Source of the DNA: Ligustrum vulgare
Lineage: Eukaryota; Streptophyta; Magnoliopsida; Lamiales; Oleaceae
Reading direction: 5' to 3'
Length of the DNA stretch: 64,000 bases
NCBI GenBank assembly: GCA_963555705.1
Contig: OY743170.1
Coordinates: 12,687,096 to 12,751,095 of the forward strand
A model generated the notes under the pieces. It made no database searches. It was not told the DNA's origin and saw nothing but the letters and a program-made list of their open reading frames with translations. Shown one piece after another: positions 5,226 to 28,163 of this stretch. The stretch's first letter is position 1, and the number at the start of each line of letters is the position of its first letter. The translations under genes were made by a program, and so were the position numbers.

Positions 5226-5433
5226 TGTTATAAATAATGTATATATGTGAATGACATTACCATTATATCCCTGTAAACTTTACAATATTACGATTGTGCC
5301 ATTGTCCACTCCTATAAATAGGAGCCTATACTTACCAATTTATTACACCAATTCTTGAAGAGAAATTCTCTCCTCTAAACTCTCTCCATTTCTCTTTCTA
5401 TGTTGTTCTTATGATTTCGATGATTTTATAACA
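5226..5433 (+). repeat. 5' LTR of cassette-bearing Copia element
   Basis: 208 bp, TG...CA ends. It contains a TATAAATA box (about 5310-5320) followed by a pyrimidine-rich leader (CTCTCCTCTAAACTCTCTCC). I see no difference from the right LTR. Confidence 0.95.
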
Positions 5434-5450
5434 CGTTATCAGCACGAGTC
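5434..5450 (+). other. Primer binding site (minus-strand start)
   Basis: CGTTATCAGCACGAG immediately follows the left LTR. The same word follows the LTR of the element at 36319, so it marks the element's plus orientation. This is the half-tRNA-type primer site often seen in plant Copia elements. Confidence 0.8.
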
Positions 5451-6550: not shown

Positions 6551-6689
6551 TTGAATACATATAAACACATCAGTTGTTGGTTAATTCTAACATATTAGAG
6601 GGTTGTTGTCAACATATATACTTGGTGGTATAACCCCAGTATCGTTATTGTTAATATATATATATACAATATTATTGTTATTTGATACT

Positions 6690-7090: not shown

Positions 7091-7147
7091 AACGAGACAT
7101 ACATGCAAAATGCAAAAGGGGAAAACATTTATGATCCTCAAAATTAG

Positions 7148-7343
7148 AGATGTGTTTCGGGAGTAGCCGTATCCTACCACCTCTGACCTTTTGAGGAAAT
7201 AAAGAAAAAAGTGTGTTTCAAGAGTAAGAAATACTCCATACTCTACCACTTTAAATCTTTGAGGTACACAAGATTAATACATTGATAAAATCCTAGAAAT
7301 TTATGGTGTGTCTCAAGAGTGAGAATACTCCGTACTCTACCAC
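7148..7343 (-). repeat. Three-unit repeat downstream of LOG copy 1
   Basis: Three diverged units with period about 75-80 bp, near 7149-7182, 7210-7247 and 7303-7343. On the minus strand each reads GTGGTAG, then TACGGAGTATTC or similar, then TTGAGACAC. Two are separated by CTTTGAGG or TTTTGAGG words. The same arrangement follows LOG copy 2 at about 23150-23360, so it belongs to the cassette. It could be a 3' processing or structural element; the function is unknown. Confidence 0.65.
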
Positions 7344-7358
7344 CACCTATTCTAGAGT

Positions 7359-8012
7359 TCACAAAGATAAATTTACATTAACCGGACTCCATTTTCGCTT
7401 GATTCCCCTTCCTTGCGACCAATCTATCTTTACTCCTGCTGGATCTTGTATTGGAATATATGATTGCAACTTATCCAGCAGTTCCTCGATAGTAGGAGCA
7501 GAAATAAGGATTCTCCTAGAAAATGGAGATATGAATCCCTGTTCCACAGCATAATCAAGAAATGTTAGCAAACCATCAAAGAAATTGTTTACATTTAAAA
7601 GCCCTATAGGCTTAGTATGGAGATCTAGTTGAGCCCATGAAGTAATATTAAAGATTTCTTCTAAAGTACCAAAACCTCCAGGCAGGGCTATGAAGGCATC
7701 AGAACCATATAACATGCAAGTTATGCGTTCATGGATAGATAAGGTTTGTACTTCATGCCCTCGTGTTTTGCCTGCAATATCAGCTAAAGGAGTAGGTATA
7801 ACACCTATCACTCTTGCTTTCTCTACTAGAGCGGATTGTGAAACACAACCCATCAATCCACTGCTACCTCCTCCATACACGAGAGTGATACCTTTCTCTC
7901 CCAATTTCTTTCCTAAATCCACGGCTGCTTCTAGATACCCAAAACCTTTTCCCACTTTTGATCCACAAAATACACAGATAGTTTTGATCTGTCGAAATTT
8001 TGGTCCTTCCAT
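7359..8012 (-). CDS. LOG-type cytokinin riboside 5'-monophosphate phosphoribohydrolase, copy 1
   Basis: 217 residues without interruption, the usual length of plant LOG proteins. LOG enzymes cleave cytokinin riboside monophosphates to the active free base and ribose 5-phosphate. Visible landmarks: ICVFCGS near residue 12 (Rossmann start), LVYGGGSSGLMG near 44, and ALPGGFGTLEE near 108, the family's nucleotide-binding signature with F for the common Y. The C-terminal part reads TWAQL-like SWAQLDLHTKP and PIGLLNV. The family's RKxxM segment reads RITCM: Arg is kept and the Lys is lost, so activity cannot be taken for granted. Plant LOG genes normally have several introns; this frame has none, suggesting a retrocopy. 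It lies antisense inside the retrotransposon, 248 bp downstream of the Cys-finger gene. About 93% identical in protein to copy 2 (23368-24021). Confidence 0.92.
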   Translation of the reverse strand: MEGPKFRQIKTICVFCGSKVGKGFGYLEAAVDLGKKLGEKGITLVYGGGSSGLMGCVSQSALVEKARVIGVIPTPLADIAGKTRGHEVQTLSIHERITCMLYGSDAFIALPGGFGTLEEIFNITSWAQLDLHTKPIGLLNVNNFFDGLLTFLDYAVEQGFISPFSRRILISAPTIEELLDKLQSYIPIQDPAGVKIDWSQGRGIKRKWSPVNVNLSL

Positions 8013-8072
8013 TTTTGAAAGTAAAGAAGGAAAATGTTATTTTGGGATGCATGAACTATGAAAAATGTTTGG

Positions 8073-8081
8073 CTATTTAAA
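8073..8081 (-). promoter_or_regulatory. TATA-like box upstream of LOG copy 1
   Basis: The minus strand reads TTTAAATAGCCAAAC here, about 61 nt before the ATG. The same TTTAAATAG stands before LOG copy 2 and before both Cys-finger genes, in otherwise diverged spacer. A core-promoter role is inferred. Confidence 0.5.
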
Positions 8082-8260
8082 ACCGAAAAACTTCACTATT
8101 TACTGGTCGTTTTTCGAAAAAGTGAAGATTTACTTTTGACAAAATCATCCTACTCACCTTTCGGCGATTTAATATTTTTAACCAGCCTTTATCAAAACTC
8201 GTGAAAGGAAACAGAAAAAATATTTTATATGTGCATATATATCAAATGATTTACCTTGTA

Positions 8261-8806
8261 TTAATGCTGCATAGCCAAAGCATCATTGTTTATAACAGCA
8301 TGGCAAACAGGATCTTTTGCTATTATATTTTTGAGACTATATCTCTCTTTATCGCTGATGAATTTAGCCCATAAAGATAGTAGCTCACGCTGCACATATC
8401 CACTAGGGTGCGTCTCAAGAGTCAATCGGATATCATCCAATGACTCCTTACTCAGTCCACCCTTAATGAAGTCTATCTTATCATCTCGATTTATGGATGA
8501 ATATCCTATTGATTTACAACGGGTATCACATGTCCATCGAGCACATTTGTAGCAACTATTTAATCTTTTTGCTCTTCGCTTCTTTGCAAAAGTACTCTTA
8601 CCTAAGCCAGGCTTGTGCTTAGAAAATGAATCTGGTAATTCACCAGCTAATCGAACTTTTGCTTCGATCAACCAGCGAACATCTTCTGACATGCCATGAT
8701 CCATCAGCAACCTCAATCTTTCGAGCCTAATTCGATAAATTTTTCTCAAATCATTTACTGGAAGATTGGAATAATATTTGCGAATATTTGAAAGTATGAT
8801 ATCCAT
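8261..8806 (-). CDS. Basic Cys-finger protein resembling plant-virus nucleic-acid-binding proteins, copy 1
   Basis: 181 residues from the Met of MDIIL. This start is chosen because identity with copy 2 begins exactly there, whereas the upstream in-frame residues differ. The order is an alpha-helical N-terminal part (residues 1-57), then GKSTFAKKRRAKRLN (about 69-83), a basic stretch leading straight into a CYKC...C...C finger (about 85-97), then DDKIDFIKGG and a conserved tail containing LETHPSGYVQRELL. The basic block, Cys finger and FIK-G segment in that order resemble the NABP/cysteine-rich proteins of carla-, viti- and trichoviruses, which bind nucleic acid and in several cases suppress RNA silencing. 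This comparison is from memory and covers only about 50 residues. The N-terminal and C-terminal parts are not recognised. First gene of the minus-strand pair, followed by LOG. Confidence 0.75.
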   Translation of the reverse strand: MDIILSNIRKYYSNLPVNDLRKIYRIRLERLRLLMDHGMSEDVRWLIEAKVRLAGELPDSFSKHKPGLGKSTFAKKRRAKRLNSCYKCARWTCDTRCKSIGYSSINRDDKIDFIKGGLSKESLDDIRLTLETHPSGYVQRELLSLWAKFISDKERYSLKNIIAKDPVCHAVINNDALAMQH

Positions 8807-8838
8807 TTTTGATGGATCTAGCCTTCTTCCCAAATCAT

Positions 8839-8847
8839 CTATTTAAA
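8839..8847 (-). promoter_or_regulatory. TATA-like box upstream of Cys-finger copy 1
   Basis: Minus-strand TTTAAATAG, ending 33 nt before the MDIIL start; the spacing before copy 2 is 35 nt. Such spacing would leave a very short leader. Confidence 0.45.
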
Positions 8848-9099
8848 TGCATTATTCAACGCGTAAAAGAGCGGCGGCTCCGCGTGTCAGTGATATGGAT
8901 TCCATCAAGAAATAATGGAATAAATTATTGAAAAGGTGAGATAATATGCCATTACCTTTTTCGATATAAGGGAAGATTTGGCGACAAGATTGAGATTATG
9001 AGATATTTCCTTGGATATTGTACCTGATTTTTCGGTATACTAAAAGTAATAAAGGTATACTGATTTGAACTATATAGAATACTAATGAAATAAATGTTG

Positions 9100-9312
9100 T
9101 ATTGAACCAGAAGTTCATACATATGTACAAGTGAAATATCTTATTGAACCAGAAGTTCATACGTACAAGTGAAATATGTATATAGTATGAACCAGAAGCT
9201 CATAAATGAAATATACATTGTATTGAACCAGAAGTTTAGCGATATTGTATTGAATCAAATATTCATACATAGAAATGAAATAAAACCGTATAGAACCAGA
9301 AGTTCTATAATA
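9100..9312 (+). repeat. Micro-hairpin cluster with CAGAA loops
   Basis: TGAAC-CAGAA-GTTCA at 9103-9117 and again near 9135-9149, ATGA/TCAT stems near 9184-9199, and an 8-bp stem TATAGAAC around the same loop at 9289-9309. Loops are constant and stems differ. Confidence 0.8.
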
Positions 9313-10340
9313 AACGGTTAGATTATCAAAAGTTCCAAATTATTTTCTATGAGAATAACTTATTCAGAAATTGTTTATCATACAACAATATTCTATGTCA
9401 AACAGGGAATAGCTCAAGAAGCTTTATTATTTGTAAAAGTGCGATATGCATACACTCCACCAAAGCGCACTGAGATATATGATTGAAATTACATCCCTAA
9501 AAGAATGACATGTGTTATGGCATTTTAGCCGATTGATAATATTTGAGAACATTATGGTGAAAACACGCCTGAAGCGTAATTATGCCTGAAGCATAATGAC
9601 TATCGATTCCAAAAATAAATATCTCTTGAATGATTGAAATGATTCCTTTGAGGCTAAATACTCAAAGTAAGTAAAAGGGACATAGTCAAATGATGAGATA
9701 TTCAGGTACCTGATGATAGAACATATAAAGAGATCTCTCCACGTTATATTGAGATGGAATCGATAAATAAGTCGACTGCATACCCTCTTATGAAATAAGA
9801 TTGATGAAATCATAATTCTTTGGCCAAGTATGAAACCCTAATGTAGGGATTATTGTTCAAGGACCTGAAGTCCAAATGCTTAAATGTGTAAAGCCAGTAA
9901 TTATATGTACAAATGAAAAATATTTCACAGTCGTAAAAGACGACTAGTTGCGCGCGAAATTTTTCATAGAACTGGCATGACATATGGTGGATAGACTATA
10001 GTCTAAATCACTAGCTTGAGCTCCTTGATATACCAATGAGTGAGATCAAAATGTATGATTCTCATCTCGGTACTTTGGGAGTATTCTTTGATGTACCAGT
10101 TGATCGCGGTACGTTGGGATTTCAAGTAAAATGATTGTAGATTATATGTCGAAATTGATATCTATTTCAATGATTGATTATGCTCCTGCAAAATTAGAAA
10201 TTGCAGTTTATAAAGTGCAAGAACATACATGTATAAATCATTGAAAGATTCAATATGCCCAGATTAGTATCACTATAGAATGATACAAATGACTCCATGA
10301 TATAATATGTTGAAAGTGAAATTGGAGTGTACTATTTATG
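9313..10340. other. Internal non-coding part of Copia element
   Basis: No gag or pol similarity and no long open frame. This is where an autonomous relative would have pol. A motif GAGATCAAAATGTATGATTC and similar words give no recognised function. Confidence 0.5.
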
Positions 10341-10349
10341 ACATCTGGG

Positions 10350-10560
10350 AAATTGATTATTCACTAGAAGTGAATACGAAAATGAATATTCACCAGAAGT
10401 GAATTTGAAATTGATTATTCACTAGAAGTGAATTTGAAAATGAATATTTAATTATTCACTAGAAGTGAAAGATGCAATCTATGAAAGTGAATTATAGATT
10501 TGATTATTCACCAGAAGTGAATTCTAAATTTGATTATTCACCAGAAGTGAAAAATACAAT
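10350..10560 (+). repeat. Array of six TTCAC-(TAGAA/CAGAA)-GTGAA hairpins
   Basis: Six near-identical hairpins within about 200 bp, for example ATTCAC-TAGAA-GTGAAT at 10359-10375, spaced 25-50 bp apart. The loop alternates TAGAA and CAGAA. Confidence 0.85.
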
Positions 10561-10614
10561 GAAAAGATTCGTGATTGCACCAATATACATGTAATATTCC
10601 ATGAAAGGAATAAA

Positions 10615-10958
10615 TACGCGTTGCACTCTTTTTCCCTTAGCTGAGGTTTTGTCCCACAGGGTTTTCATAACAAGGTTTTAACGAGGCAGCGGCTGTACTC
10701 TTTTTCCTTCGTTCAGATTTTGTCCCATTGGGTTTTACTGACAAGGTTTTAACGAGGCAGCACTGAAGCACTGAAGAACTTCAAAGATTCAATACATGAT
10801 TTGTTCTACTTGAACATTAAGACTCAACGATTGACGATGGCCAATATCAGGGGGAGCAACTGTACTCTTTTTCCTTCGCTCAAGTTTTATCCCATTGGGT
10901 TTTCTTAGCAAGGTTTTAACGAGGCAGACAATTGCGTAATATGTCATTCAAGGGGGAG
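10615..10958 (+). repeat. 3' domain with repeated ACTCTTTTTCC...ACGAGGCAG motif and polypurine tract
   Basis: Three copies of a block containing CTCTTTTTCC, TTTTGTCCCA or a variant, TTTTAACGAGGCAG, ending in AAGGGGGAG just before the LTR. The element at 36319 has two or three copies at 42252-42415. Typical 3' non-coding end of this Copia lineage; the plus-strand primer is at 10950-10958. Confidence 0.75.
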
Positions 10959-11166
10959 TGTTATAAATAATGTATATATGTGAATGACATTACCATTATA
11001 TCCCTGTAAACTTTACAATATTACGATTGTGCCATTGTCCACTCCTATAAATAGGAGCCTATACTTACCAATTTATTACACCAATTCTTGAAGAGAAATT
11101 CTCTCCTCTAAACTCTCTCCATTTCTCTTTCTATGTTGTTCTTATGATTTCGATGATTTTATAACA
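10959..11166 (+). repeat. 3' LTR of cassette-bearing Copia element
   Basis: 208 bp, same sequence as 5226-5433. The purine tract CAAGGGGGAG directly precedes it (10950-10958), and the 5-bp target duplication AAACT follows. Confidence 0.95.
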
Positions 11167-11554
11167 AAACTTTCATTTTATGTCTCTTTTTAGGATCCAA
11201 TAATCTCTTCAAAAATGGCACATTTAGTTGCCTTTCCTTGATGTTGCCATAATGTCATAACTTCTCTTCTCTGTACTAATGACGGTATATGATTTATTCT
11301 CCACTTTAGAAGAAACAACGTGGCCTGTTATTCTTCTTGTACTTAAAATTTACACTCTCTTCGGCAGCTTCATTTTTTTTTTCTAGCTAAAATGTGTGGA
11401 TGAAAATTAGAGAGAAAAATGTGAGTGATTAAAAAATAGTTTGAAAAATTGTGTTACTTATAAATTGGTTTATAAACCAACTTATAGAGTAGCATTTGAG
11501 AATTGTGAATCCATTAGCTAGTAGTACTCGTGCATAACACTCATTGGATTCTTC
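11167..11554. other. Non-coding DNA with MITE-like tract
   Basis: Between the Copia element and the old element. Contains a foldback-type tract (TTATAAATTGGTTTATAAACC at about 11457-11477) of a kind also seen near 29360-29410 and 56600-56740. Confidence 0.4.
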
Positions 11555-12049
11555 CTTTTTTTATTTTTTTAATACCCAAAAAATTCGGGCAATATATTAA
11601 AAACGTTGTGGGATTATATCGACATCATAACGAATAGCTCGACTCGATAATAACTTGAGGCCACTGAAAGCAATTGTGTCGGCCTATTTAGCGGTCTTGT
11701 GTCTTGCCTTTTGGTTGGTTAAGTTGGGCTAACTTAGTTTAGTTTGTGTATTAGGCTTTGGTTAGTTAAGTTGCCCAAAATATTTAACCTAACCCAATTC
11801 CTTATATACTACCTAAGTCTCATTGTTGCCTTTTGAATTACCGATAGATAGAGAGAAGGAGCTCACATTCAACTTGGAGCTTTTGAAGTCTTCATTGCTC
11901 ATTTTCTTCGACCTTATTCTCCCTTTGTGATATTGTGTTCATCTCCTTCAATCAAGGTGGGTCGATTGCGGAGTCGAGCTTGGAAGTTTGGTGTCGGTTT
12001 TGAAGAGCTTAGCTCGATTTTGTGTGTTAGAGAATAAACAATTTTAATA

Positions 12050-12060
12050 TGGTATCAGAG
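12050..12060 (+). other. Primer binding site of old Copia-like element
   Basis: TGGTATCAGAG, complementary to the 3' end of plant initiator Met-tRNA, directly after the left LTR. Unit 2 has TGGTATTAGAG at about 44807-44817, one base changed. Confidence 0.8.
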
Positions 12061-12894
12061 TTAGTGCGTTATTTGATCAAGATATTAGTAGAAGAAATTG
12101 AAAACTGGAGCTAAAATAATGGGTAGAATCCAAGAGCTAAACTATCCAGAATTTTAGTCAAGTCACCAGACTGAAATCATGTTTTCCGACTAAATGACTG
12201 ACCGCTTGGAAGAACAATTACCACATGTGTACTCAGCAGGTTGAGGCGAAGTTCATTGGTCGGCACGTGGGAATGAGCAGCAGCGTGTGTGACAGCGCGT
12301 GGCTCGATTTTTTGAGGAAGTTTTCTTCAAACAAATTGTGTATTTTATCATTTCTAAAATTTTGGTGGTGTTAGATGTGACGACCCGAATTTTCGACCAT
12401 TCGAGTGCCACTAAAAGTGACTCATATCATATTATCGAGACTTAAATAGTAATGTAATATTATTCAAAAGAATAATTAGAATCCCATAATTTAATTTGTG
12501 AATAAAAATAGAACATAATTTTCTTACATAAAGTTCAACATAATTATCTCATCAATCTTAACCACTTTTGCCACTTCCATGTTGACCGCCTCGAACCTTC
12601 AATTATCTGAAAATGGTAAATATCGTGGAGTGAGATTTATAAAATCCCAGTAAGTATACCAAGCATAAATTTTCTTTTGAAAGCATATGGATCATTTTCA
12701 TCATAACATAGGATAGGATCGAAATACTCATAAACATAGGGAGACACAAGAATTTTACCGAACTTAAATGGCAAGAATTCTTATGTGTAGCGCTACTAAA
12801 CTCCGGTCCCCTTAGCATAATCATAAACATATCATATGGAACCCATAACAATCTTGTGAGATTGATTTCATAGCAATGATCCAAACATTTTCAT

Positions 12895-13545
12895 AAAAAC
12901 ATAAGATATACTTACTTGTCATAAAAACATACTTACTTTTCATAAAAACATAAGGTGTATTTACCTTTCATAAAAACATACTTACTTTTCATAAAAACAT
13001 AAGATATACTTACTTGTCATAAAAACATACTTACTTTTCATAAAAACATAAGGTGTATTTACCTTTCATAAAAACATACTTACTTTTCATAAAAACATAA
13101 GGTGTATTTACCTTTCATAAAAACATACTTACTTTTCATAAAAACATAAGGTGTATTTACCTTTCATAAAAACATACTTACTTTTCATAAAAACATAAGG
13201 TAATACCTTTCATAAAAACATACTTACTTTTCATAAAAACTTAAAGTATATTTACATTTCATAACAACATACTTAATTTTCATAAAAACATAAGATATAC
13301 TTACTTGTCATAAAAACATACTTACTTTTCATAAAAACATAAGGTGTATTTACCTTTCATAAAAACATACTTACTTTTCATAAAAACATAAGGTGTATTT
13401 ACCTTTCATAAAAACATACTTACTTTTCATAAAAACATAAGGTAATACATTTCATAAAAACATACTTACTTTTCATAAAAACTTAAAGTATATTTACATT
13501 TCATAACAACATACTTAATTTTCATAAAAACATAAGATATACTTA
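12895..13545. repeat. Tandem array inside solo LTR (ACATACTTACTTTTCATAAA units)
   Basis: About 13 copies of a roughly 50-bp compound unit alternating CATAAAAACATA with CTTACTTTTCATAA, GTGTATTTACCTTTCATAA and GATATACTTACTTGTCATAA. Copy number and order differ from the arrays in the intact LTRs. Confidence 0.9.
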
Positions 13546-13764
13546 CCTTTTAAAAGATTAAAATGAAGTGTAGTAGTAAATGGACCAAAACTTTCTTGAC
13601 CACCTTGAATTTCTCTTACTTGTGGATTTTGTCAAGAGGTTGGAAATAAGTGTATATGTGTAGAGTTGTGTGTAAAAGAGATGGGTTTAAATAGATGTAT
13701 AAAGTTGGCATATTGTAAACATAATCATTCAATTCTATTAATTTTAACACATCATTTTCTTAAA

Positions 13765-14335
13765 GTAAAGCACCATTCATATACTTTTCCATATTTATAC
13801 AAATAATATGCTCTTCATGATTATATATAATGGAGTCTATCAATCATTCATATACTTTTCCATATTTATACAATTATTATGCTCTTCATGATTATATATA
13901 ATGGAGTATATAAATCATTCATATACTTTTCCATATTTATACAAATATTATGCTCTTCATGATTACATATAATGGAGTATATAAATCATTCATATACTTT
14001 TCCATATTTATACAAATATTATGCTCTTCATGATTACATATAATGGAGTCTTATCAATCATTCATATACTTTTCCATATTTATACAAATATTATGCTCTT
14101 CATGATTATATATAATGGAGTATATAATTCATTCATATACTTTTCCATATTTATACAAATATTATGCTCTTCATGATTACATATAATGGAGTCTATCAAC
14201 CATTCATATACTTTTCCATATTTATACAATTATTATGCTCTTCATGATTATATATAATGGAGTATATAAATCATTCATATACTTTTCCATATTTATACAA
14301 ATATTATGCTCTTCATGATTACATATAATGAAACC
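13765..14335. repeat. Tandem array inside solo LTR, 69-72-bp units
   Basis: About eight copies of a unit containing CATTCATATACTTTTCCATA, TTTATACAAATATTATGC and CTCTTCATGATTA. Counterpart in the intact LTRs is at 19150-19670 and 26090-26590. Confidence 0.9.
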
Positions 14336-15599
14336 TCTCATGCTTGCATATATTTTCTTAATTTCAATAATAAAAATAATTTTTGTATAAATAAATATTG
14401 GGATAACATTGAATTAAGTACTTGGACTTAATATACTTTAAATCAAGAGAATGGAGATATTTTTAGAAATTCGGAATTTAATTTAAAATCGAACGATCTC
14501 GATTATTTCTTGACTTGGCTATACGAATACGTCGCGGCGTTAACTTAATAAAAATGGGTGAAATAGTAGCGACACGATTTTCTATTAAAATAATTATTAA
14601 TCGCGTAAAAATTCTTGGTCGCTACATTAGATTTTCGTTCCAGGTTTTGGATCTTAATCTGGATGATTTTTCCCTTGATAGTTTGGGAATCGATCTTTAG
14701 TTGTTGTATTGCTTCCATTGCTACAAGTTTAGGGACAAAAAGTGGTGGTCCTAAAGTTGAGAAAATCCGCATCTCTCCTAATTTACGGACCGATATATTG
14801 GTCCGCTCGGTAAATTGGCTCATCCCTTTTAAATTTCTTCTTTAACAAACTATCGCGTCGGTTGATCGTTAGGATTGAGATTACCGTAAAGGGGTAACCA
14901 TTCTCTGTTGCTAGAATTTAGGTTTTAACTGTCTTACTAGCTTACGTGTTTGAGGTGTGAAACTGCTTATAAATCTTGTTTGGTCTTTTGATTGTGTGGT
15001 GACATAATTCATGTTTGTTGCTTCTTCTTTTTATTCTTGTTAATCATGTTAGATTTCTTTTGACTCTTGGACTACTTGTTGTGATTAATTGTCAATTCGT
15101 GATTTTTTGTTCAATTCATGTCCAAAAATGAATGTACGTTTTAATTTGGGCATTTTTAATGGGAAAGGGGATTTTCCCATTTGGCAATAGAAAATGAGGT
15201 GAATTTTGGTTCAACAAAATGTTTCAAAAGTTATTACATTTTTTTGTTAATTTCTTTTGACTTTTGAACAACTTGTTGTGATTAATTGTGAATTCGTGAT
15301 TTCTTGTTCAATTCACGTCCAAAAAAGAATGAATGTATGTTTTAGTTTGGGCATTTTTAAGGAGAAAGTGGATTTCTCCATTTGGCAACAGAAATTGAGG
15401 TGAATTTTGATTCAACAAAATGTTTCAAAATTTATTACTGACATTTTTTCATTGATTTGTCGATCAGAAAGATGATTTAGAAGAATTTGTTTATATTTCA
15501 ATTGTTTTACACTTATCTAATGTTGTTTTGAGAAAGGCTGGTAAACTTGATACCACGAACGAACTGAGGACTTCTATTTGCTTAAAACTTCATATAACA

Positions 15600-16150
15600 A
15601 ACTTTACCTACTTGAAAGATTTTTCAGCTTTCTACAAAATGATCTAGATGACAATCTAGATATGTTTAACAAATTTGTGCAAAATATTGTTAATTGTGGT
15701 AAAGATGTGTCTGAAACCTACAAAGCCATTATTTTACTTAATTTTCATGCCTAGATCATATAAAGAGGTTAAGAATGAAATTAAGTATGATATGAGCAAC
15801 TTAACACCTGAGATTGTCATGCATTCTTTTAGGAGTAAGGAAATGGAGATTATGACTGAGAAAGAAGACAAGAGGGGTGTTGAAGAGTAAATGTGAAGGG
15901 TAGGAGTCATTGTACGCAAAAGGGTCATGTTCAAAATAGTAGTGATTCGAGTGATGACTTGAGTGATGAGAGTGGTAAGCAGAAAGGTAAGAGTTGGGAT
16001 AAGTCCAAGATCAGAGTGGGTGGCGGACGATGTTTTATACGTGGTAAGGCTAGAAGTTTTATAAGGGATTGTCCTAAGAGGAAGGGTAAGCAGAAGGAAA
16101 AGGTGAGAGATGAGGAGAATGTTACTGAGTCTAGTTATGACCCCAAGTGA
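15600..16150 (+). pseudogene. Copia-type gag remnant (unit 1)
   Basis: Broken gag. At 15600-15770 the frame has YLKDFSAFY, DDNLDMFNKFVQNIVNCG and ETYKAIILLNFHA, the pattern of the Copia gag (UBN2) domain. At 15893-16150 the basic tail and a ruined zinc knuckle appear: CFIRGKARSFIRDCPKRKG keeps the first Cys, the last Cys and the basic end of a CCHC finger but lacks its second Cys and its His. Stop codons and frame changes separate the parts. No protease, integrase or RT follows. The unit 2 copy is at about 46080-46660. Confidence 0.7.
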
Positions 16151-16919
16151 GATTGATGGTGACCCTTATTGATAGGGAACTTAGTTACTTCATGTGTTTC
16201 TATGTAAAATTTATTTGCATGTTTGATTGCTTAATTCAGTGCATTGTTTTATGTTTGCATTTCAATTTGTTTGATATATGTTTTTGCATGAAATTGTGTG
16301 TGATCTATTTTACTGTGTAATTTGTGTGCATGAATAGTAGTCTGGATGCATTAGTTGTAAGTATAAACAATTGAAATCAAGAGTTGAGATGTGATTAAAT
16401 ATGTATGAAGTCCTCTATATATGAGAATTCTGATCCGATAAAGTTTAAGAGTGACACTTTGATCACTTCTATTGGGTGAGGACTCATTACCCACTTATGA
16501 TCTATTTTGTTTACCAGTTAGATATTTGTAGTGATCAATCTAGTGAATATAGGTGGTGATGTGTATAATATGTATTCATCGAGGTGCGAGTTACACATAA
16601 TGAAATAGGATAATTGTCGTAAGATCTTTTCATGATGTCATTTATGCATTGTGTTATATATGTTGGCTATTGTGTTTGATTAACTTGAGGTTAGTCTTAT
16701 ATTCCTAACTTAGTGAACATGTTTTTTTGATAAGATTGGTTATATCCTATGGTTATATCTTCATCGCATGTGTTATATATTCTTGATTAATTATCGTGGC
16801 TGTCTTTCTTCTAATTGAGTGTTTTTTATCTTAGCCATGGTGAGTAAATGAAGCAAGTATAATGTGTTTCTAGTTTGAGACACGAGGTAAAGTTTATGAT
16901 TCAAATTTTTGTTGGTTAA
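16151..16919. other. Internal non-coding sequence of old element
   Basis: AT-rich, TTGCATG- and GTGTGTG-rich DNA with no open frame of note. It is present in both units; unit 2 has an extra tract near 46868-46935. Confidence 0.5.
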
Positions 16920-18367
16920 TGATAAGTGCATTTTATGCACTTATTTACGTGCTTAAATTAGAATTTTATATAATCGTTTGAGAGTATGCTACTAATTTAT
17001 CCATCATTTTTGTATATTTCACATTTATCTCGAAATCAAGAGAATGAAGAAATTAGAGAAAATAATGAGCAAAAGGGAAGGAAATTGGACCAAAATTGAG
17101 CAAAGCAAGAGTAATGGATACAGAACATGGATAAAGAAGGAGAATCGTGGAAGAAATGATGAAATCGAAGATTTTCAGAAGTATAAGGATCAAAATGTTT
17201 CAATCAGAAGATGGGGACTTGAGGAGAAATAAAGTATAAGGACCAATTTGCAGAAATTAAAAGATGAAAATTGCTGTCGGATTTACAAACGTGCGGCTGC
17301 ACGACCAGGAAAAAAGGCGACTGAAGGACAGGTTTTAGAGTCTGCGACAGCAAGAGATTCCACCATGCGGTCGCACAGTGTCCCGACTGGGCCACTGATG
17401 GGCTTTCCACGCGAATTCTGATTTAATTCATCCCTTTTCTCCTAGGTCAGGGGGAGGCATATATATATATAACAGGTTGCACGAATTTTGTCATTCTCTC
17501 TTGACGTAATACATTAAACAACACATGCAAGTTTTGGAGAGGGAAATTGTGGAAGAATCATCATCAACTCTCGGACTTTTCATATTATAGTTGATGGAGT
17601 TCCTTTATGTTTGTGATTTGCTATTAACAATGTATCTAGACTAATTTTATATAGTGCTGGGATTATGATGAAGTCTTAGATACTTATTTCATGCTTTGGT
17701 TTATTTAATTTTATGATAATTGGTATTTTGAGTAATTGATTCGTACTTAGTTTCATCTATAATTTTGATGCATGAATTATATGATGCTTGTGGTGATTTT
17801 TCTATGATCGAAAGAATGAAATTTTGCTAGACTTGAATCAATGGTCATAGGGTTCGATAGGGATAGAAATATACCACTATGCCCTATGTGATCTTTTCAT
17901 GTTCATGTTTGTTTAATATTTTTCTAAATATTAGCATTCATCATAGAAATATAGGTGGATCGTAATTAGGAAAATGCTTAATTCTTGTTCGAAAGAGAGT
18001 TTTAGGCATTATAGGAACATTGATCGTCAATAATATACCTTGTCATGGATTATTTAAACCATAGTGTGAAATATCGATACTAAGATGGATTCTAAATCCT
18101 AGCACTTCACTCACATATATTTGTTAAACAAATCTTGCATTTCCATTTAGTCTTTAATTTGTTCGATAATTTTAGATTTAGTTGGTATTTTCATCTAATC
18201 ATTTAGGATCCTCTATAAACAACTTTACATTTATTTGTTTCGGTTAAGGTTAATAATCTAAGAAAATAGATCAACTCAATCCTTGTGGGAACGACATTCG
18301 GACTCAATTCCATTTTATTACTTGTTCGATACCGTACATTTGCGGTAAGAGTAAAAATAACCGATCA
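16920..18367 (+). mobile_element. Solo LTR, Tat/Athila-like Gypsy (unit 1)
   Basis: Starts TGATAAGTGCATTTTATGCA and ends AACCGATCA, with target duplication GTTAA on both sides (16915-16919, 18368-18372). The TGATAAGTG start and the GTGGGAACGACATTCGGACT segment near the end are typical of Tat/Athila LTRs. The same insertion is in unit 2 (47491-48940), so it predates the duplication. A 62-codon frame at 17044-17232 is not regarded as a gene. Confidence 0.85.
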
Positions 18368-18881
18368 GTTAATTTGATTGAGCAAGTATAAACATTGTGT
18401 TTGCTTGCAAGTTGATTGTATCAAGGTGGAGACTCGTTAGGCTTTTTGAAATCCAATAAATTTGGTTAATGATGTTAAAACGTTATTGGATTATATTGAC
18501 ACCATAATGAATAACTCAACTCAAAAACCACCAGTGGTCATTGGAAGCAACTTAATTGGGTAGTTGCTCATGACCCATTTGGGAAGACCCAATTGTGTTG
18601 GCTCATTTAGCGATCTTGTTTCTTGCCTTTTGGTTGCTTAGGTTGGGCCAACTTAGTTTAGTTTGTGTATTGGACTTTGGTTAGTTAAGTGGCCCAAAAT
18701 GTTTCACCTAGTCCAAGTCCTTATATACTACCTAAGTCTCATTGTTGCCTTCGAGTTTGAATTACCAATAGAGAGAAGGAAGGAGCGCATAGCCAACTTG
18801 GTGCTTTTGAAGTCTTTACTGCTTGTTTTCTTTTACCTTATTCTCCCTTTGTGATATTGTGTTAATCTCCTTCAACTAAGG

Positions 18882-21113
18882 TGTAGCGACCAAGAATTTT
18901 TACGCGATTAATAATTATTTTAATAGAAAATCGTGTCGCTACTATTTCACCCATTTTTATTAAGTTAACGCCACGACGTATTCGTATAGCCAAGTCAAGA
19001 AATAATCGAGATCGTTCGATTTTAAATTAAATTCCGAATTTCTAAAAATATCTCCATTCTCTTGATTTAAAGTATATTAAGTCTAAGTACTTAATTCAAT
19101 GTTATCCCAATATTTATTTGTACAAAAATTACTTTTATTATTTAAATTAAGAAAATATATGCAAGCATGAGAGGTTCCATTATATGTAATCATGAAGAGC
19201 ATAATATTTGTATAAATATGGAAAAGTATATGAATGATTTATATACTCCATTATATATAATCATGAAGAGCATAATATTTGTATAAATATGGAAAAGTAT
19301 ATGAATGATTGATAAGACTCCATTATATGTAATCATGAAGAGCATAATATTTGTATAAATATGGAAAAGTATATGAATGATTTATATACTCCATTATATA
19401 TAATCATGAAGAGCATAATATTTGTATAAATATGGAAAAGTATATGAATGATTTATATACTCCATTATATATAATCATGAAGAGCATAATATTTGTATAA
19501 ATATGGAAAAGTATATGAATGATTGATAAGACTCCATTATATATAATCATGAAGAGCATAATATTTGTATAAATATGGAAAAGTATATGAATGATTGATA
19601 AGACTCCATTATATATAATCATGAAGAGCATATTATTTGTATAAATATGGAAAAGTATATGAATGGTGCTTTACTTTAAGAAAAGGATGTGTTAAAATTA
19701 ATAGAATTGAATGATTATGTTTACAATATGCCAACTTTATACATCTATTTAAACCCATCTCTTTTACACACAACTCTACACATATACACTTATTTCCAAT
19801 CTCTTGACAAAATCCACAAATAAGAGAAATTCAAGGTGGTCAAGAAAGTTTTGGTCCATTTACTACTACACTTCATTTTAATCTTTTAAAAGGTAAGTAT
19901 ATCTTATATTTTTATGAAAAGTAAGTATGTTTTTATGAAAGGTAAATACACCTTATGTTTTTATGAAAAGTAAGTATGTTTTTATGAAAGGTAAATACAC
20001 CTTATGTTTTTATGAAAAGTAAGTATGTTTTTATGACAAGTAAGTATATCTTATGTTTTTATGAAAAGTAAGTATGTTTTTATGAAAGGTAAATACACCT
20101 TATGTTTTTATGAAAAGTAAGTATGTTTTTATGACAAGTAAGTATATCTTATGTTTTTATGAAAAGTAAGTATGTTTTTATGAAAGGTAAATACACCTTA
20201 TGTTTTTATAAAAAGTAAGTATGTTTTTATGACAAGTAAGTATATCTTATGTTTTTATGAAAAGTAAGTATGTTTTTATGAAAGGTAAATACACCTTATG
20301 TTTTTATGAAAAGTAAGTATGTTTTTATGACAAGTAAGTATATCTTATGTTTTTATGAAAAGTAAGTATGTTTTTATGAAAGGTAAATATACCTTATGTT
20401 TTTATGAAAAGTAAGTATGTTTTTATGAAAGGTATTACCTTATGTTTTTATGAAAAGTAAGTATGTTTTTATGAAAGGTAAATACACCTTATGTTTTTAA
20501 GAAAAGTAAGTATGTTTTTATGAAAATTAAAATACATTATGTTTTTAAGAAAAGTAAGTATGTTTTTATGAAAAGTAAATATACCTTATGTTTTTACGAA
20601 AATGTTTGGATCATTGCTATGAAATCAATCTCACAAGATTGCTATGGGTCCCATATGATATGTTTATGATTATGCTAAGGGGACCGGAGTTTAGTAGCGC
20701 TACACATAAGAATTCTTGTCATCTAAGTTCGGTAAAATTCTTGTGTCTCTCTATGTTTATGAGGATTTCGATCCTATCCTATGTTATGATGAAAATGATC
20801 CATATGCTTTCAAAAGAAAATTATGCTTGGTATACTTATTGGGATTTTATAAATCTCACTCCACGATATTTACCATTTTCAGATAATTGAAGGTTCGAGG
20901 CGGTCAACATGGAAGTGGCAAAAGTGGTTAAGATTGATGAGATAATTATGTTGAACTTTATGTAAGAAAATTATGTTCTATTTTTATTCACAAATAAAAT
21001 TATGGGATTCTAATTATTCTTTTGAATAATTTTACATTACTATTTAAGTCTCGATAATATGATATGAGTCACTTTTAGTGGCACTCGAATGGTCGAGAAT
21101 TCGGGTCGTCACA
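18882..21113 (+). repeat. 5' LTR of Gypsy-type element
   Basis: 2232 bp from TGTAGCGACCAAG to GGGTCGTCACA; the ends are imperfect inverted repeats (TGTAGCGACC and GGTCGTCACA). It holds two tandem arrays: about eight 69-72-bp units at 19150-19670 and about fourteen roughly 50-bp units (GTTTTTATGAAAAGTAAGTA) at 19890-20610. A TTTAAACCCATCTCTTTTAC segment between them may be the promoter and start region. Confidence 0.95.
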
Positions 21114-21127
21114 GTTGGTATCAGAGA
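21114..21127 (+). other. Primer binding site of Gypsy-type element
   Basis: GTTGGTATCAGAG directly after the LTR, complementary to plant initiator Met-tRNA. It sets the plus orientation of the element. Confidence 0.88.
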
Positions 21128-23090
21128 AAAGAGTTTTAAAAACGATTCTGTAGATTTTTGAAATTTTATTTCTTTAAAAAAAAAAAAAAATCACTATTCA
21201 CGTGAACAGTAAAACGACGTGCTATTCATGATGAACAGTGAACGAAATCACTATTCATTATATAAAAAAAAAGTTGAATTTTCACATGTCAAGTATGGTT
21301 ATGATTTTGAAAATTATGATGAAATTTGATGTGCGAATTTCTAGGACAAAATTCATTTTAAGCAAGAGAGTTTGTAATGTCCTGAAAATTTTATGGAATA
21401 TAATTAGTTAGTGATATGATGTTTATATTGATGTCTTTGATAAATTTCTAGAAGTTCGGGGACTAAAGGAAAAATAAGATTTGACGATAAATTTTATTTG
21501 GGTTAAGTTATTAATTATTGATGGGGAGATAATTACTATATCGATATTGGATTTGTTTTGAAGACCGTGATTAATTAGGAATTATGATTCAAGAAAATGT
21601 TGATTTGGATACAACCACATTAAATTATTGTTGATTAAAGGAAAATAAGATTATATGAAATATTTTAACTCATCACTCTACTATGTCACTCTCCACGTAT
21701 TGACTCCTCGAACCAGGTATGTTATATGCTTTGCAAGTCATTTACGATTTTATTAAGACATGTTAAGTATGAAATCTTCATATGTTATGAATCTTTATGT
21801 GTTACACATAATATACATGTCAAGTATGATATAAATTGATAGAAGACTCAATTTTTTTATTCTTTTCAATGTAGAATCATGAGACAGAGAGGATATTTAT
21901 ATGAATTTTGGTGCATATTAAGCTTAGTAAGATTGACTCAATTAGAAATTAAGTTGGGTTGTAACTTTTGCCCAAAATATATGGAATAATATATTAAACA
22001 AACAAAATTGATAATGAATTCGTACAATAATTTATCCCTTTATCACTACCTTTGTGTAAAAACAAGGGAAAAACTGTGGATGGTTATTAGTACTTCCTCT
22101 TCAAGTTTCAATTTTCGGTTCAATAATTTATCCCTTTATCACTACCTTTGCTTAAAAGCAAGGAAAAACTGTGGATGATTATTGGTACCACTCTTCAAGT
22201 TTCAATTCTGAAAAAAATTCGGAAAGAAAGAAAGAGAACGGGTGTTGAGCATAATGGGAATAATATGACTTAAGAATGATTTTCAAAATAATTGTTGTCC
22301 TTGAGTTTAGAAATGATGAACCTTAAATGGACTTTGCATAATTGATTTTAGACATGGCACTAAGTATGAGAAGTCAACAGAAATGATTAGAAATATGTTC
22401 AGATTATCTATCATTTAGATTTAATGAGAAATAGCGAGCCAATTTTATGAAGTTTTATGAGATGTTAAGATTATAAGTGATATGATTTTAATGAGACTTT
22501 TATGAGAAGCATTATGAAGTTAGAGATTTAAAGATTTGGTTATTGGGAATTAAGTAATGGATATTATGTTGAGTAAGTGAATTATGCCTCTATATTGAAG
22601 AGAAATTTATTATGAACTTTGGCCTTGTGATTAAATTTTGGGAATATGATTTATGACTTATAAATATAAGTATGAGTAATCTTTTGAGCCAATTAAGATA
22701 TGGAAGGAAGTGATATTGTGATATTGAAAAATATGATTTGAAATTGTTATGTTGAGAAATTATGAATTGAATTATGGGATATTTTTTGATGATATTGAAG
22801 TGTTGGAATCGTTTTCAATATTTTTAGATTGTTGTGATCAAATGTGGAATTATTTATTATTGTGAGTTATGAAGTATGCTTACGGTTTGAATAAGTCCAA
22901 ATTTCAAAGGAAACTCTGCTTAGAATTTTATCGTTTGGAATTAAGAGCATAGTATGGTATGCAATCACTAAGAGAATTGAGGTTAGACATGCAAATTCAT
23001 TTACATCACAAACGAGATTTAGTAGATGATAACAGAGATATTTATTATTTTCTCGTAAGGAGAACACACAAGAGTCACATTGGAAAGAAA
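21128..23090. other. Internal non-coding 5' part of Gypsy-type element
   Basis: AT-rich sequence with a poly-A run (about 21176-21190), a duplicated tract (CAATAATTTATCCCTTTATC at 22023-22046 and 22122-22145 with related flanks), and no gag or protease similarity. Confidence 0.5.
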
Positions 23091-23149
23091 TACATGAAAC
23101 ACGCAAAATCAAAAGAAAGCAACATGGGAAATTCCTCAAATTGAGAGAT

Positions 23150-23360
23150 GTGTTTCCGGAGTAGCCGTATCCTACCACCTCTGACCTTTTGAGGAAATAA
23201 AGAAACCTTCAAAGAGGTGTCTTTCGAGAGTAAGAATACTCCGTAATCTACCACCTGGAACCTTTGAGGTACACACAAGATTTAAACATTAAGGAAAATC
23301 CTAGGAAATTAGATGGGTGTCTCGAGTGTAAGAATACTCCGTACTCTACCCCCACCTATT
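23150..23360 (-). repeat. Three-unit repeat downstream of LOG copy 2
   Basis: Three diverged units, near 23150-23180, 23217-23255 and 23312-23348, matching the arrangement at 7148-7343. Confidence 0.65.
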
Positions 23361-23367
23361 CTAAGAT

Positions 23368-24021
23368 TCATAAAGTTAAGTTTACATTAACCGGACTCCA
23401 TTTTCGCTTGATTCCCCTTCCTTGCGACCAATCTATCTTAACCCCTGCTGGATCTTGTATTGAGATATATGACTGCAGCTTATCCAGTAGTTCATCAATA
23501 GTAGGAGCAGAAATAAGGAGCCTTCTGGAAAATGGAGAGATGAATCCCTGTTCCACAGCATAATCAAGAAAGGTTAACAAGCCATCAAAGAAATTGTTAA
23601 CATTCAGAAGCCCAATAGGCTTAGTATGGAGATCTAGTTGAGCCCACGAGGTAATGTTAAAGATTTCTTCTAAGGTACCAAAACCTCCGGGCAGGGCTAT
23701 AAAGGCATCAGAACCATATAGCATACAAGTTATGCGTTCATGGATGGATAAGGTTTGAACTTCATGCCCTCGTGTTTTTCCTGCAACATCTACCAAAGGG
23801 ATAGGTATGACACCGATTACTTTTGATTTCTCTGCAAGAGCAGATTGGGAAATACAACCCATTAGACCACTGCTACCACCCCCATACACAAGAATGATAC
23901 CTTTTTCCCCCAGTTTCTTTCCAAGATCTACGGCCGCTTCTAGATAACTGAAGTCTTTCCCCACTTTTGATCCACAAAATACACAAATAGTTTTGATCTG
24001 TCGAAGTTTTGGTGCTTCCAT
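23368..24021 (-). CDS. LOG-type cytokinin riboside 5'-monophosphate phosphoribohydrolase, copy 2
   Basis: 217 residues, uninterrupted and intronless, with the landmarks of copy 1: ICVFCGS, LVYGGGSSGLMG and ALPGGFGTLEE. About 16 residues differ from copy 1, nearly all in the first 80 and last 50. Residues 81-165 are identical although about 20 silent changes separate the genes there. That pattern is expected of a protein kept by selection, not of two decaying copies. It carries the same RITCM in place of RKxxM. It is antisense inside a Gypsy-type element unrelated by LTR to the carrier of copy 1, 296 bp downstream of the second Cys-finger gene. Expected product: cytosolic cytokinin-activating enzyme; activity is unproven. 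Confidence 0.92.
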   Translation of the reverse strand: MEAPKLRQIKTICVFCGSKVGKDFSYLEAAVDLGKKLGEKGIILVYGGGSSGLMGCISQSALAEKSKVIGVIPIPLVDVAGKTRGHEVQTLSIHERITCMLYGSDAFIALPGGFGTLEEIFNITSWAQLDLHTKPIGLLNVNNFFDGLLTFLDYAVEQGFISPFSRRLLISAPTIDELLDKLQSYISIQDPAGVKIDWSQGRGIKRKWSPVNVNLTL

Positions 24022-24095
24022 CTTTGATAGTATAGAAGAGAAAACTTACGAAGAAGATGTGATTTTGGGATGCCTGAACTATGAAATATGTTTGG

Positions 24096-24104
24096 CTATT
24101 TAAA
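24096..24104 (-). promoter_or_regulatory. TATA-like box upstream of LOG copy 2
   Basis: Minus-strand TTTAAATAGCCAAACA, 75 nt before the ATG, matching the box before copy 1 in sequence and surroundings. Confidence 0.5.
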
Positions 24105-24317
24105 GCCGGAAAAATTTACTGTTTTTGATTGATTATGAAAAAGTAAAGATTTACTTTTGACAAAATCGGCCAACTTTTGACTGTTTTACCAAAGATATCA
24201 CCTTTCGGTGATTTATTTCCAGCTTTATCAAAACTCGAGAAAGGAAAATATATTTTATTTCCAAAACGCGTGAAAGAAAACAGCAAAATATTTTAAATGT
24301 GTATCAAGAGATTTACC

Positions 24318-24869
24318 TTATATCATTGTTGAACTGCCAGAAGCCTCATTTTGTAAAACAGACTGGCAAACATGATCTTTTGCTATTATATTTTGGAGAC
24401 TATAACGATTTTTGTCCTCGTTAAACTGAGCGTATAAGGAGAGAAGTTCACGTTGCACATAACCACTTGGGTGCGTCTCAAGAGTCAGTCGAATATCATC
24501 CAAAGACTCCTTACTCAGTCCACCCTTTATGAATTTGATTTTATCATCCCGATTAGTAGAAGAATATCCTACTGTTTTGCAACGAGTATCACAGTTCCAA
24601 CGAGCACATTTGTAGCAACCATTCAGCCTTTTTGCTCTTCGTTTCTTTGCGAAGGTGCTTTTGCCTAAACCAGGCATGTGCTTTGGAAATGTCATAGGTA
24701 ATTCACCAGATAGTCGAACCTTTGCTTCGATCAACCAGCGAACATCTTCTGAAACACCATGAGCCATCAGCAACCTCAATCTTTCGAGTCTTATTCGATA
24801 AATTTTCCTCAGATCATTCATTGGAAGACTGGAATAATACTTGCGAATGTTTGTAAGAATGATATCCAT
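24318..24869 (-). CDS. Basic Cys-finger protein resembling plant-virus nucleic-acid-binding proteins, copy 2
   Basis: 183 residues from the shared MDIIL start. An in-frame extension to 24917 has no counterpart in copy 1, so it is not used. It has the same order: helical N-terminal part, GKSTFAKKRRAKRLN, CYKC...C...C finger, FIKGG, and a tail with THPSGYVQRELLSL. Residues from FIKGG to ELLSL are identical in the two copies. The last 35 or so residues differ most, including the stop position. The resemblance to carla/viti/trichovirus NABPs rests on the basic block, finger and FIK segment, recalled from memory. It may be a captured virus-like gene or an unrelated plant Cys finger. Confidence 0.74.
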   Translation of the reverse strand: MDIILTNIRKYYSSLPMNDLRKIYRIRLERLRLLMAHGVSEDVRWLIEAKVRLSGELPMTFPKHMPGLGKSTFAKKRRAKRLNGCYKCARWNCDTRCKTVGYSSTNRDDKIKFIKGGLSKESLDDIRLTLETHPSGYVQRELLSLYAQFNEDKNRYSLQNIIAKDHVCQSVLQNEASGSSTMI

Positions 24870-24903
24870 GTTTTTGATGGATCTAACCTCTTCCCAGCAT
24901 GAA

Positions 24904-24912
24904 CTATTTAAA
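24904..24912 (-). promoter_or_regulatory. TATA-like box upstream of Cys-finger copy 2
   Basis: Minus-strand TTTTAAATAG, ending 35 nt before the MDIIL start. Confidence 0.45.
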
Positions 24913-25129
24913 AGCATTAAGGATCGGAGGGAATCCGCGTGATATTGATTCCAGCAAGAAAGCGCGGAATAGAATAATGGAAAAGAGGGAACAAGAGTTT
25001 ATGTGCCGTTTACTTTCTTGATAAAAGGAAGATTTGATGATGACGGGATTTGAGATATGGAATATTGTCTTGGATTTTGGGTACTGATATTTTGATATAA
25101 TAATCAAGGTATAGAAATAATACGGGGAT

Positions 25130-25801
25130 ACGTGAAAGTGAAATAAGGACTGTATTAAATCAGGATTAATAAGTTTGTGCAAGTGAAAGGAATACCTTAC
25201 GGGAAATGTTATGATATTTGAGTTAAGAATTTTAATTATTTGGGAGATATTTGTTTATTGAATTTTGCAGAAATTTTGGGTTACAAATATTGGAAAGATA
25301 AACTGATGATTATGTTGATATGTGAATAACATGTTTGGGTATATTACATAGAGAATATTCAGGTAATCGTTTTAATTATTTTGGGATATTTGGTGATAAG
25401 AAGAAATGACAAATTATTATGGTATGATATGTTAGTAAAGATTTATTGAAATTTTAGAGATATTAATACGAATATTTGAGGTCACATGATACGATGATAA
25501 ATGAAAAGTTACATGAATACTACAAGATATGATGAAATATCACATACGATTGGGAATTTTCATTTTGATTCAGAAGAATTTATGAGTAGACATATGTCTA
25601 TTATTGATAGAAAAGTCCATGTCTTAAGAAAACAAATTGATGCATTTAGTCAAAGTCCAGTGGGTTAAATATGGTTGGGTTAAATATGGTAGCGATGATG
25701 CTACATAAGAAGAAGAAGAAGAGATTATGATTACGTGTTCAGAAATCATAAGATCAAGTAAGATTAATTTCGAGGACGAAATTATTTTAAGGGGGTAAGT
25801 T
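25130..25801 (+). other. 3' internal end and polypurine tract of Gypsy-type element
   Basis: Non-coding. A GAAGAAGAAGAAGAGATTATG tract lies at about 25708-25730. The conserved Gypsy 3' end TTCGAGGACGAAATTATTTT begins at 25769, and AAGGGGG at about 25789-25795 is the likely plus-strand primer. Confidence 0.6.
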
Positions 25802-28033: not shown

Positions 28034-28163
28034 TAAGGTGTGTGTTAGAGTTTTATTGGAGCAATCAAGGTGGGTCGATTGTGGAATTAAGCTTAAAGTT
28101 TGGTGTATGTTGTGAAGAGCTAATTGAGCCCCGTTTGGCGTGTTAAAGAAACAACAATTTTAA

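Follow-up and report, generated by a model that had tools for sequence, protein, structure and literature searches.

The window analysed here, a stretch of 64,000 nucleotides of Ligustrum vulgare (contig OY743170.1), holds two long terminal repeat (LTR) retrotransposons, El1 and El2, each of which carries, antisense to the element, a gene for a flexivirus-type nucleic-acid-binding protein (NABP) and a gene for a LOG-like protein. In addition to these two carriers we found a sense NABP gene near a gypsy pol and a locus reading NABP, TAG, LOG, which together indicate that the module has spread across LTR lineages. Plant LTR elements of two unrelated kinds at the least, and probably of three, carry the two-gene module, a distribution which suggests that the module benefits the elements that carry it and has moved from one to another. 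An earlier note, made from the sequence alone, had proposed a portable module moving between retrotransposon classes, and this proposal is strengthened here by the Copia-type and probably gypsy-like nature of the two carriers, the old split of their cassettes, the young insertions, the many copies of both families and a third, sense arrangement.

Structure and divergence of the shared cassette

In both elements the cassette lies on the minus strand and reads NABP, spacer, LOG and a three-unit repeat, with its core at ~7135-9043 in El1 and ~23133-25103 in El2. El1 encodes an NABP of 181 amino acids (aa) (8261..8806, minus strand; PF05515 and PF01623) and a LOG-like protein of 217 aa (7359..8012, minus strand; PF03641), followed by the three-unit repeat at 7135..7358. 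In El2 the corresponding parts, also on the minus strand, are an NABP gene of 183 aa from the conserved start (24318..24869), a LOG-like gene of 217 aa (23368..24021; PF03641) and the repeat at 23133..23367; the listed open reading frame (ORF) of the El2 NABP extends to 24917 (199 aa), starting from an earlier ATG that the TTTAAATAG box overlaps. This TATA-like box, TTTAAATAG, ends 32-74 bp upstream of all four start codons, and the three-unit repeat downstream of LOG is conserved across both carriers.

When the interiors of El1 and El2 were compared (the El2 LTRs lying outside the comparison), the cassette alone matched, over 1909 bp of El1 with 80.3% identity, and all further matches had E values above 0.02, except one of 40 bp inside the cassette. 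The alignment of the two cassettes takes in both genes, the downstream repeat and part of the spacer. Two intact genes in the same antisense order, with matching boxes and repeat, as the earlier note had described, are indeed present over ~1.9 kb. One of its gene names had to be corrected: the LOG gene stands and the "Cys-finger" gene encodes a protein of the flexivirus NABP families (PF05515, PF01623).

The LOG pair has 92.6% protein identity, a synonymous divergence (dS) of 0.505 and a non-synonymous divergence (dN) of 0.036 (dN/dS 0.071), and the NABP pair has 81.8% protein identity, dS 0.638 and dN 0.122 (dN/dS 0.192). The contrast between synonymous and non-synonymous changes is highly significant in both (Fisher P 2e-24 for LOG and 2e-13 for NABP), and the cassette has diverged between El1 and El2 under purifying selection. 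Cassette dS values of 0.51 and 0.64, against LTR identities of 100% and 99.955% within the two elements, imply an old split and recent insertions. As a candidate RNA structure the three-unit repeat folds only weakly better than its shuffles (z -0.86 to -1.62), and an Rfam search of positions 5000-28200 found no family.

The two carriers and their lineages

El1 occupies 5226-11166 and is bordered by target-site duplications (TSDs) AAACT at 5221..5225 and 11167..11171. Its LTRs of 208 bp (5226..5433 and 10959..11166, plus strand) are 100% identical and enclose a primer-binding site (PBS), CGTTATCAGCACGAG, at 5434..5448 (plus strand) and a polypurine tract (PPT), TTCAAGGGGGAG, at 10947..10958 (plus strand). 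The window also contains El3 (36319..42612, plus strand), a Copia element that has gag as well as two pol frames. Its LTRs (36319-36489 and 42443-42612) are ~97% identical, and ATAGA stands on both sides of the element; its frames contain copia gag and RVT_2 domains and an integrase-core match that scored just below the cut-off. El1 and El3 have in common the LTR termini TGTTATAAAT...ATAACA, the first 14 bases of the PBS, the PPT and a 3' region at 73-87% identity (best E 8e-35), and their LTRs align with a score of 156, against a mean of 104.7 (sd 6.8, maximum 123.5) in 300 shuffles. El3 is thus likely to be an autonomous kin of El1, and by these sequence signatures El1 is Copia-type, classed solely as a non-autonomous relative because no copia-type reverse transcriptase or integrase of its own was found among its long frames. 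Its PBS may be of the half tRNA-Ile type. According to the sections consulted of PMC6317226, half-tRNA primer sites occur in Ty1/copia only, and the Bianca lineage of Ty1/copia has a PBS complementary to half of tRNA-Ile.

El2 occupies 18882-28033 between TSDs TAAGG (18877..18881 and 28034..28038), and its LTRs of 2232 bp (18882..21113 and 25802..28033, plus strand) are 99.955% identical. Its PBS, TGGTATCAGAG (21116..21126, plus strand), recurs in three further copies and is probably of the tRNA-Met type; the PPT region lies at 25785..25801 (plus strand), with the motif GAGGACGAA just before it, an arrangement that we presume to be chromovirus-like. In the same sections of PMC6317226, tRNA-Met primer sites are given for Copia elements and most chromoviruses and as absent from non-chromoviruses. 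El2 thus has the PBS of most Ty3/gypsy chromoviruses, a feature that is not specific to them because most Copia elements use a tRNA-Met site too, and its class is probably gypsy-like. No frame of pol size, and so no chromodomain pol, was seen in El2, and no autonomous relative was identified for it.

The LTRs of 208 and 2232 bp and the different primer sites claimed by the earlier note are therefore borne out, each insertion with its own TSD. Its statement that the carriers lack gag and pol likewise agrees with our frame search, in which El1 and El2 had no other stop-to-stop frame of at least 130 aa besides the two genes and one overlapping LOG1 on the opposite strand, shorter pol relics lying outside that search.

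Each El2 LTR includes two tandem arrays, one repeating a 71-bp unit ~6.8 times and the other a 49-bp unit ~14.7 times. The El2 family is also represented in the window by a solo LTR in reverse orientation, at 12376-14626, with TTAGA on either side. The block 11950-33577 has a paralogue at 44709-54857 (95-98% identity) in which neither the solo LTR nor El2 is present and which so roughly represents the empty sites of the two insertions.

The NABP protein

Both window NABPs pass the Pfam cut-offs for PF05515 (Viral_NABP; 34.2 and 32.8 bits, cut-off 23) and PF01623 (Carla_C4; 25.1 and 23.1 bits, cut-off 20.9). A search for relatives gave 397 proteins at E <=0.01, and Orobanche, Populus, Xanthoceras and Acer are among the 120 listed; in an alignment of 114 sequences (the window copies and 112 of these 120), PF05515 was found in 109 and PF01623 in 102 (E <=0.01). 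The resemblance to flexivirus NABPs spans a basic KKRRAK stretch and the Cys finger that follows it, both present in either group. The cassette proteins differ from carlavirus NABPs in their length of ~180 aa, their conserved flanks and their finger spacing, which is C-X2-C-X4-C-X3-C in the window copies and not the carlavirus spacing C-X2-C-X9-C-X4-C (as in PVH).

According to the parts consulted of PMC3689765 and PMC12172455, the flexivirus homologue of PVH suppresses silencing, and the p12 protein of CVB is a transcription factor that causes hyperplasia and showed no suppression of locally induced silencing in one assay. The idea in the earlier note of a silencing-suppressor-like protein gains a basis here, now that the second protein has turned out to belong to the flexivirus NABP type.

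Outside plants, tblastn of the NABP in phage records found nothing; NABP patterns in IMG/VR contigs gave 62 stretches, none of them confirmed; the NABP profile found nothing among PDB sequences; and a search of prokaryote genomes gave 56 stretches, of which a single one, L001, was confirmed (see below). A first fold model (pLDDT 55.9) was discarded, and a second (pLDDT 79.2) had no PDB match worth keeping. Against viral structures the second model had no match at E <=0.001 (best E 0.07, with low TM-scores); among the first 20 viral matches, all below significance, 18 are named, and most of these bear the annotation of a silencing suppressor or a nucleic-acid-binding protein. All 18 presumably come from flexiviruses, which is supportive at most.

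The LOG protein

Among solved chains the window LOGs are nearest to At2g37210 (2a33; E 1e-57), which we take to be AtLOG3. They have in common with this plant LOG the equivalents of the catalytic Arg99 and Glu122 and the motif PGGxGTxxE, all present in both window copies. In the numbering of the CgLOG pocket residues, as given in the part consulted of PMC4979012, they retain Ser19, His97, Arg99, Thr119, Glu121, Glu122 and Trp129. They differ from a plant LOG cytokinin riboside monophosphate phosphoribohydrolase in having Ile in place of both Met96 and Lys100 and Asn in place of Glu125, that is, in three of the five proposed prenyl-pocket residues (Met96, His97, Lys100, Glu125, Trp129). These changes make cytokinin release doubtful and just one option, which weakens the cytokinin part of the role proposed in the earlier note. 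Across 124 other LOG rows (120 listed matches and four Orobanche fusions, some partly gapped), Arg99 is found in 112, Glu122 in 122, and Lys100 and Glu125 in six each; P0163 is one that retains Lys100.

A LOG tree of 124 rows (P0018, P0020, P0022 and P0123 left out of 128), midpoint-rooted and with a bootstrap that had not settled, places the El1 and El2 LOGs with P0121 in one clade (100/99). The two Arabidopsis rows in the tree fall together with P0122, P0178 and P0224 (100/94), with P0163 next (100/98). Reevesia pubescens supplies 39 of the 120 listed LOG matches, a number that suggests repeats.

Copies and families in the Ligustrum genome

We searched the whole genome (1.38 Gb) with the cassette-free 3' end of El1 as query, the best 40 of 4285 candidates being scored. 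At least 39 further El1 loci were found and 28 of the 39 retrieved. All 28 have both genes, some of them broken or split, antisense in the 27 copies where LTRs were seen. Both LTRs are present in 26 copies, with an exact 5-bp TSD in 25 of the 26 (not L024), and the paired LTRs are 99.0-100% identical (17 of 26 pairs identical), a youth that is partly selected since these copies are the best matches. The longest stretches of eight El1 copies compared are 97.3-99.7% identical, and a further stretch of L017 is 94.9% identical. Counting the window copy and 27 of the 28 retrieved copies (L011 being left out), the LOG frame is intact in 25 of 28 and the NABP frame in 25 of 28; single-nucleotide differences within the family amount to 10 synonymous and 10 non-synonymous in LOG and 7 and 14, respectively, in NABP.

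For the El2 type, a first look gave 8746 NABP and 9449 LOG candidates, unconfirmed and perhaps including chance matches. The 150 best-scoring NABP matches (identity >=99%) and the 150 best-scoring LOG matches (identity >=98%), each set including the window copy, are all free of stops. On contig C3, inspection by eye paired at least 14 of the 33 NABP genes among the best-scoring matches with a listed LOG on the same strand, at a distance of 0.85-1.04 kb. NABP is intact in three further El2 copies (L038-L040), with LOG full length in L040, and TSDs were found in L039 (AAAAC) and L040 (ACTTA).

A related family, represented by L042, has the antisense cassette between LTRs that are mostly different, and with the L001 NABP as query 9 of the best 150 scored matches, L041 among them, lie at 70-73% and represent a further family or families. 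In places NABP matches follow one another at intervals of 6.5-7 kb, two to five in a run (e.g. C2:4713503-4727372 and C23:10311325-10338630), which suggests tandem elements with common LTRs.

Sense arrangements elsewhere

The locus L001 is a plant-like contig of 3.3 kb in which an integrase frame (rve and H2C2 domains), of gypsy type by our reading of its sequence, is followed after 192 bp by an NABP gene in the same direction. The contig is filed under a Candidatus Nomurabacteria genome record in spite of its plant-like retrotransposon sequence, probably as a contamination. In Populus nigra, the gene model P0271 joins reverse transcriptase-RNase H domains and an NABP.

At L041:3937-5319 (minus strand), an NABP, a single in-frame TAG and a LOG follow one another in the same direction, possibly as a readthrough fusion. 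The pair sits between a primer-like site, TGGCGCCGTTGCCGGGGA, and the tract AAGTTTGGGGG, on the same strand, and we take TGGCGCCGTTGCCGGGGA to be a site of the tRNA-Asp type, as in OTA elements. Located 3.6 kb upstream is the end of a chromovirus-type pol (SH3_Tf2-1 match, integrase core below the cut-off), which may belong to another element. A repeat of 552 bp in L041 was considered as an LTR pair and ruled out, as its ends do not fit.

Of the 44 rows of one search (the query among them), 18 are Orobanche models that join NABP and LOG domains, and in another model, P0256, an NABP is joined to a copia gag domain, with the proviso that gene models may wrongly fuse neighbours. El1, El2, L041 and those fused Orobanche models that were inspected all have the two genes in the same order. 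When NABP and LOG matches were paired by the length of their contigs (119 of 120 NABP rows and 67 of 120 LOG rows entered), nine putative pairs were found, against a jitter mean of 1.3 and a maximum of 6. Five of these were dropped, four contigs being too short for both genes and one being a whole chromosome; for the remaining four, one of which involves the P0163 LOG, a second control (contigs of >=1300 bases, source ignored) gave a mean of 0.73, with 0.6% of 5000 trials reaching four. These pairs are weak support for the pairing. 

Origin and possible role of the module

We consider it rather probable that the cassette is a transferable NABP-LOG accessory module, kept by selection on LTR retrotransposons, whose proteins would act on silencing or transcription and on a nucleotide or cytokinin signal. 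The older form was probably a sense NABP-TAG-LOG behind a gypsy pol, which an OTA-type element would have carried first. The pair would then have entered elements lacking gag and pol in reversed orientation, gaining or keeping its own start sites, as it presents itself in this genome, where it forms two separate antisense genes with their own TTTAAATAG boxes in the Copia-type El1 and the putatively gypsy-like El2. Enzymes of autonomous kin such as El3 would move these carriers, the cassette having since been copied along with them and its proteins acting in trans. By analogy with flexivirus homologues, the NABP may be a basic zinc-finger nucleic-acid-binding protein that weakens the silencing of the element or alters host transcription, and the LOG may act as a nucleotide phosphoribohydrolase, changing a nucleotide or cytokinin signal in such a way that the cell becomes more permissive or divides. 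Which way the transfer went, that the carriers are mobilised in trans and what the proteins do are all inferred, the first of these from an unrooted comparison. A bolder version, which we hold only tentatively, is that the NABP is an effector gene common to LTR retrotransposons and flexiviruses and that, with its altered-pocket LOG, it makes up a module for manipulating the host which, much as an accessory gene on a plasmid would, passes among Copia, tRNA-Met gypsy-like and OTA-type elements and helps those without gag and pol to high copy number.

Several observations weigh against a selected, transferable module. Within El1, 3 of 28 LOG and 3 of 28 NABP frames are broken and an insertion splits the NABP of L011, and within-family selection is weak (P 0.019 for LOG; P 0.23, not significant, for NABP), so that recent spread alone is no proof of use. 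LOG is shortened in two of the three further El2 copies (L038 and L039), so the stop-free best matches are not typical of all copies. Catalytic residues are lost in some relatives: Arg99 is absent from the three Orobanche fusions aligned at the site (P0016, P0018 and P0020), and the LOG of L041 lacks both catalytic residues. The NABPs of L001 and L041 pass PF05515 and just miss PF01623 (20.4 against 20.9); L001 has no LOG in the 1 kb after the homologous stretch that follows its NABP stop, and L041 has no clean LTR pair. El2 codes no pol, its lineage resting on the primer site and a tract motif that we presume to be diagnostic, and the direction of transfer is not rooted.

That NABP and LOG are neutral passengers captured once, their conservation reflecting constraint before capture and the youth of the copies, seems to us unlikely. 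It accords with the very young El1 copies (17 of 26 LTR pairs identical, though these are best matches), with the non-significant selection on NABP within the family and with the broken copies; against it, both frames were kept in El1 and El2 despite a dS of 0.5-0.64, and the NABP of P0003 is 95% identical to that of El1 and 81% to that of El2, El1 and El2 being 84% identical to each other, so that, if P0003 comes from another species, two lineages persisted separately before that split. Nor do we find it at all likely that the proteins matter little and that the antisense unit is kept for its transcripts, by which the element would be regulated by way of transcriptional interference or double-stranded RNA: the cassettes are both antisense with TATA-like boxes of their own, and regulation by double-stranded RNA is proposed for antisense ORFs in the part consulted of PMC7264820, but purifying selection at the codon level (dN/dS 0.07 and 0.19) and the sense arrangement elsewhere point to the proteins.

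Independent captures of a virus-derived NABP and a host LOG in each lineage, converging on a useful pair, appear improbable. The opposite orientations in different carriers and the LOG-free L001 would be expected from them, but the El1 and El2 cassettes can be aligned over both genes, part of the spacer and the repeat, the gene order is constant from El1 and El2 to L041 and the inspected Orobanche fusions, and the El1 and El2 LOGs fall with P0121 in one clade (100/99). Local homogenisation or copying between two elements 8 kb apart, for which their closeness in the window could be invoked, has practically no probability, given that the cassettes are 80.3% identical with dS of at least 0.5, far from the 97.3-99.7% seen among eight El1 copies, and that both families lie at many loci with a separate TSD for each insertion. 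The two outcomes that the earlier note had named as fatal to its proposal, a pair present only at this locus and a local gene-conversion accident, are thereby excluded. A selected, transferable NABP-LOG module accordingly remains the explanation that we prefer.

Comparison with known systems

Extra genes in plant LTR elements are mostly obscure in origin and use, and non-autonomous elements are usually seen as empty templates. The families described here, which lack gag and pol, hold two recognisable proteins under selection, one of them of a type by which RNA viruses counter silencing or alter transcription. Should the module benefit its carriers, it would allow one to test directly whether retrotransposons carry counter-defence genes and whether such genes pass between element classes and viruses.

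A LOG-family domain inside plant LTR elements has been seen before: the part consulted of PMC9289625 reports YgdH/LOG in LTR consensus sequences from two Citrus species, to which a looser filter added Populus trichocarpa, in agreement with Steinbauerova 2011, and all 15 extra domains that passed its filter sat in gypsy elements. Neither an NABP partner nor a Copia carrier nor an antisense cassette of elements without gag and pol is mentioned in its section on the Citrus and Populus YgdH ORFs. In our search of full-text literature (mainly open-access, by the titles and the starts of abstracts among the papers listed) we found no NABP-LOG pair, no NABP in retrotransposons and no Copia carrier of LOG. 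The belief in the earlier note that the pair was undescribed thus holds, as far as print was searched, for the pair, the viral-type partner and the Copia carrier, and does not hold for LOG domains in gypsy elements, which were already known.

The orchid gypsy elements that gained an m6A demethylase domain, in two orchids only, resemble El1 and El2 as plant LTR elements with an acquired enzyme domain, and related AlkB domains of plant viruses appear in the reference list of the same paper (PMC9289625); the enzyme is a different one, and movement between element classes is not shown in the sections consulted. A parallel in arrangement is given by Grande gene23, RIRE2, Retand and PvRetro13 (PMC7264820, in part), which like the cassette have antisense genes with relatives in other species, in Grande with a promoter of its own. 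Their antisense ORFs lie between pol and the 3' LTR and, according to that source, show no clear similarity to known proteins, with an SMC domain noted in PvRetro13 and a transposase 28 domain in Retand. The genes of El1 and El2 are likewise antisense, but stand in elements without a pol frame of at least 130 aa, and, unlike these known antisense ORFs, the two proteins of the cassette both belong to recognised families.

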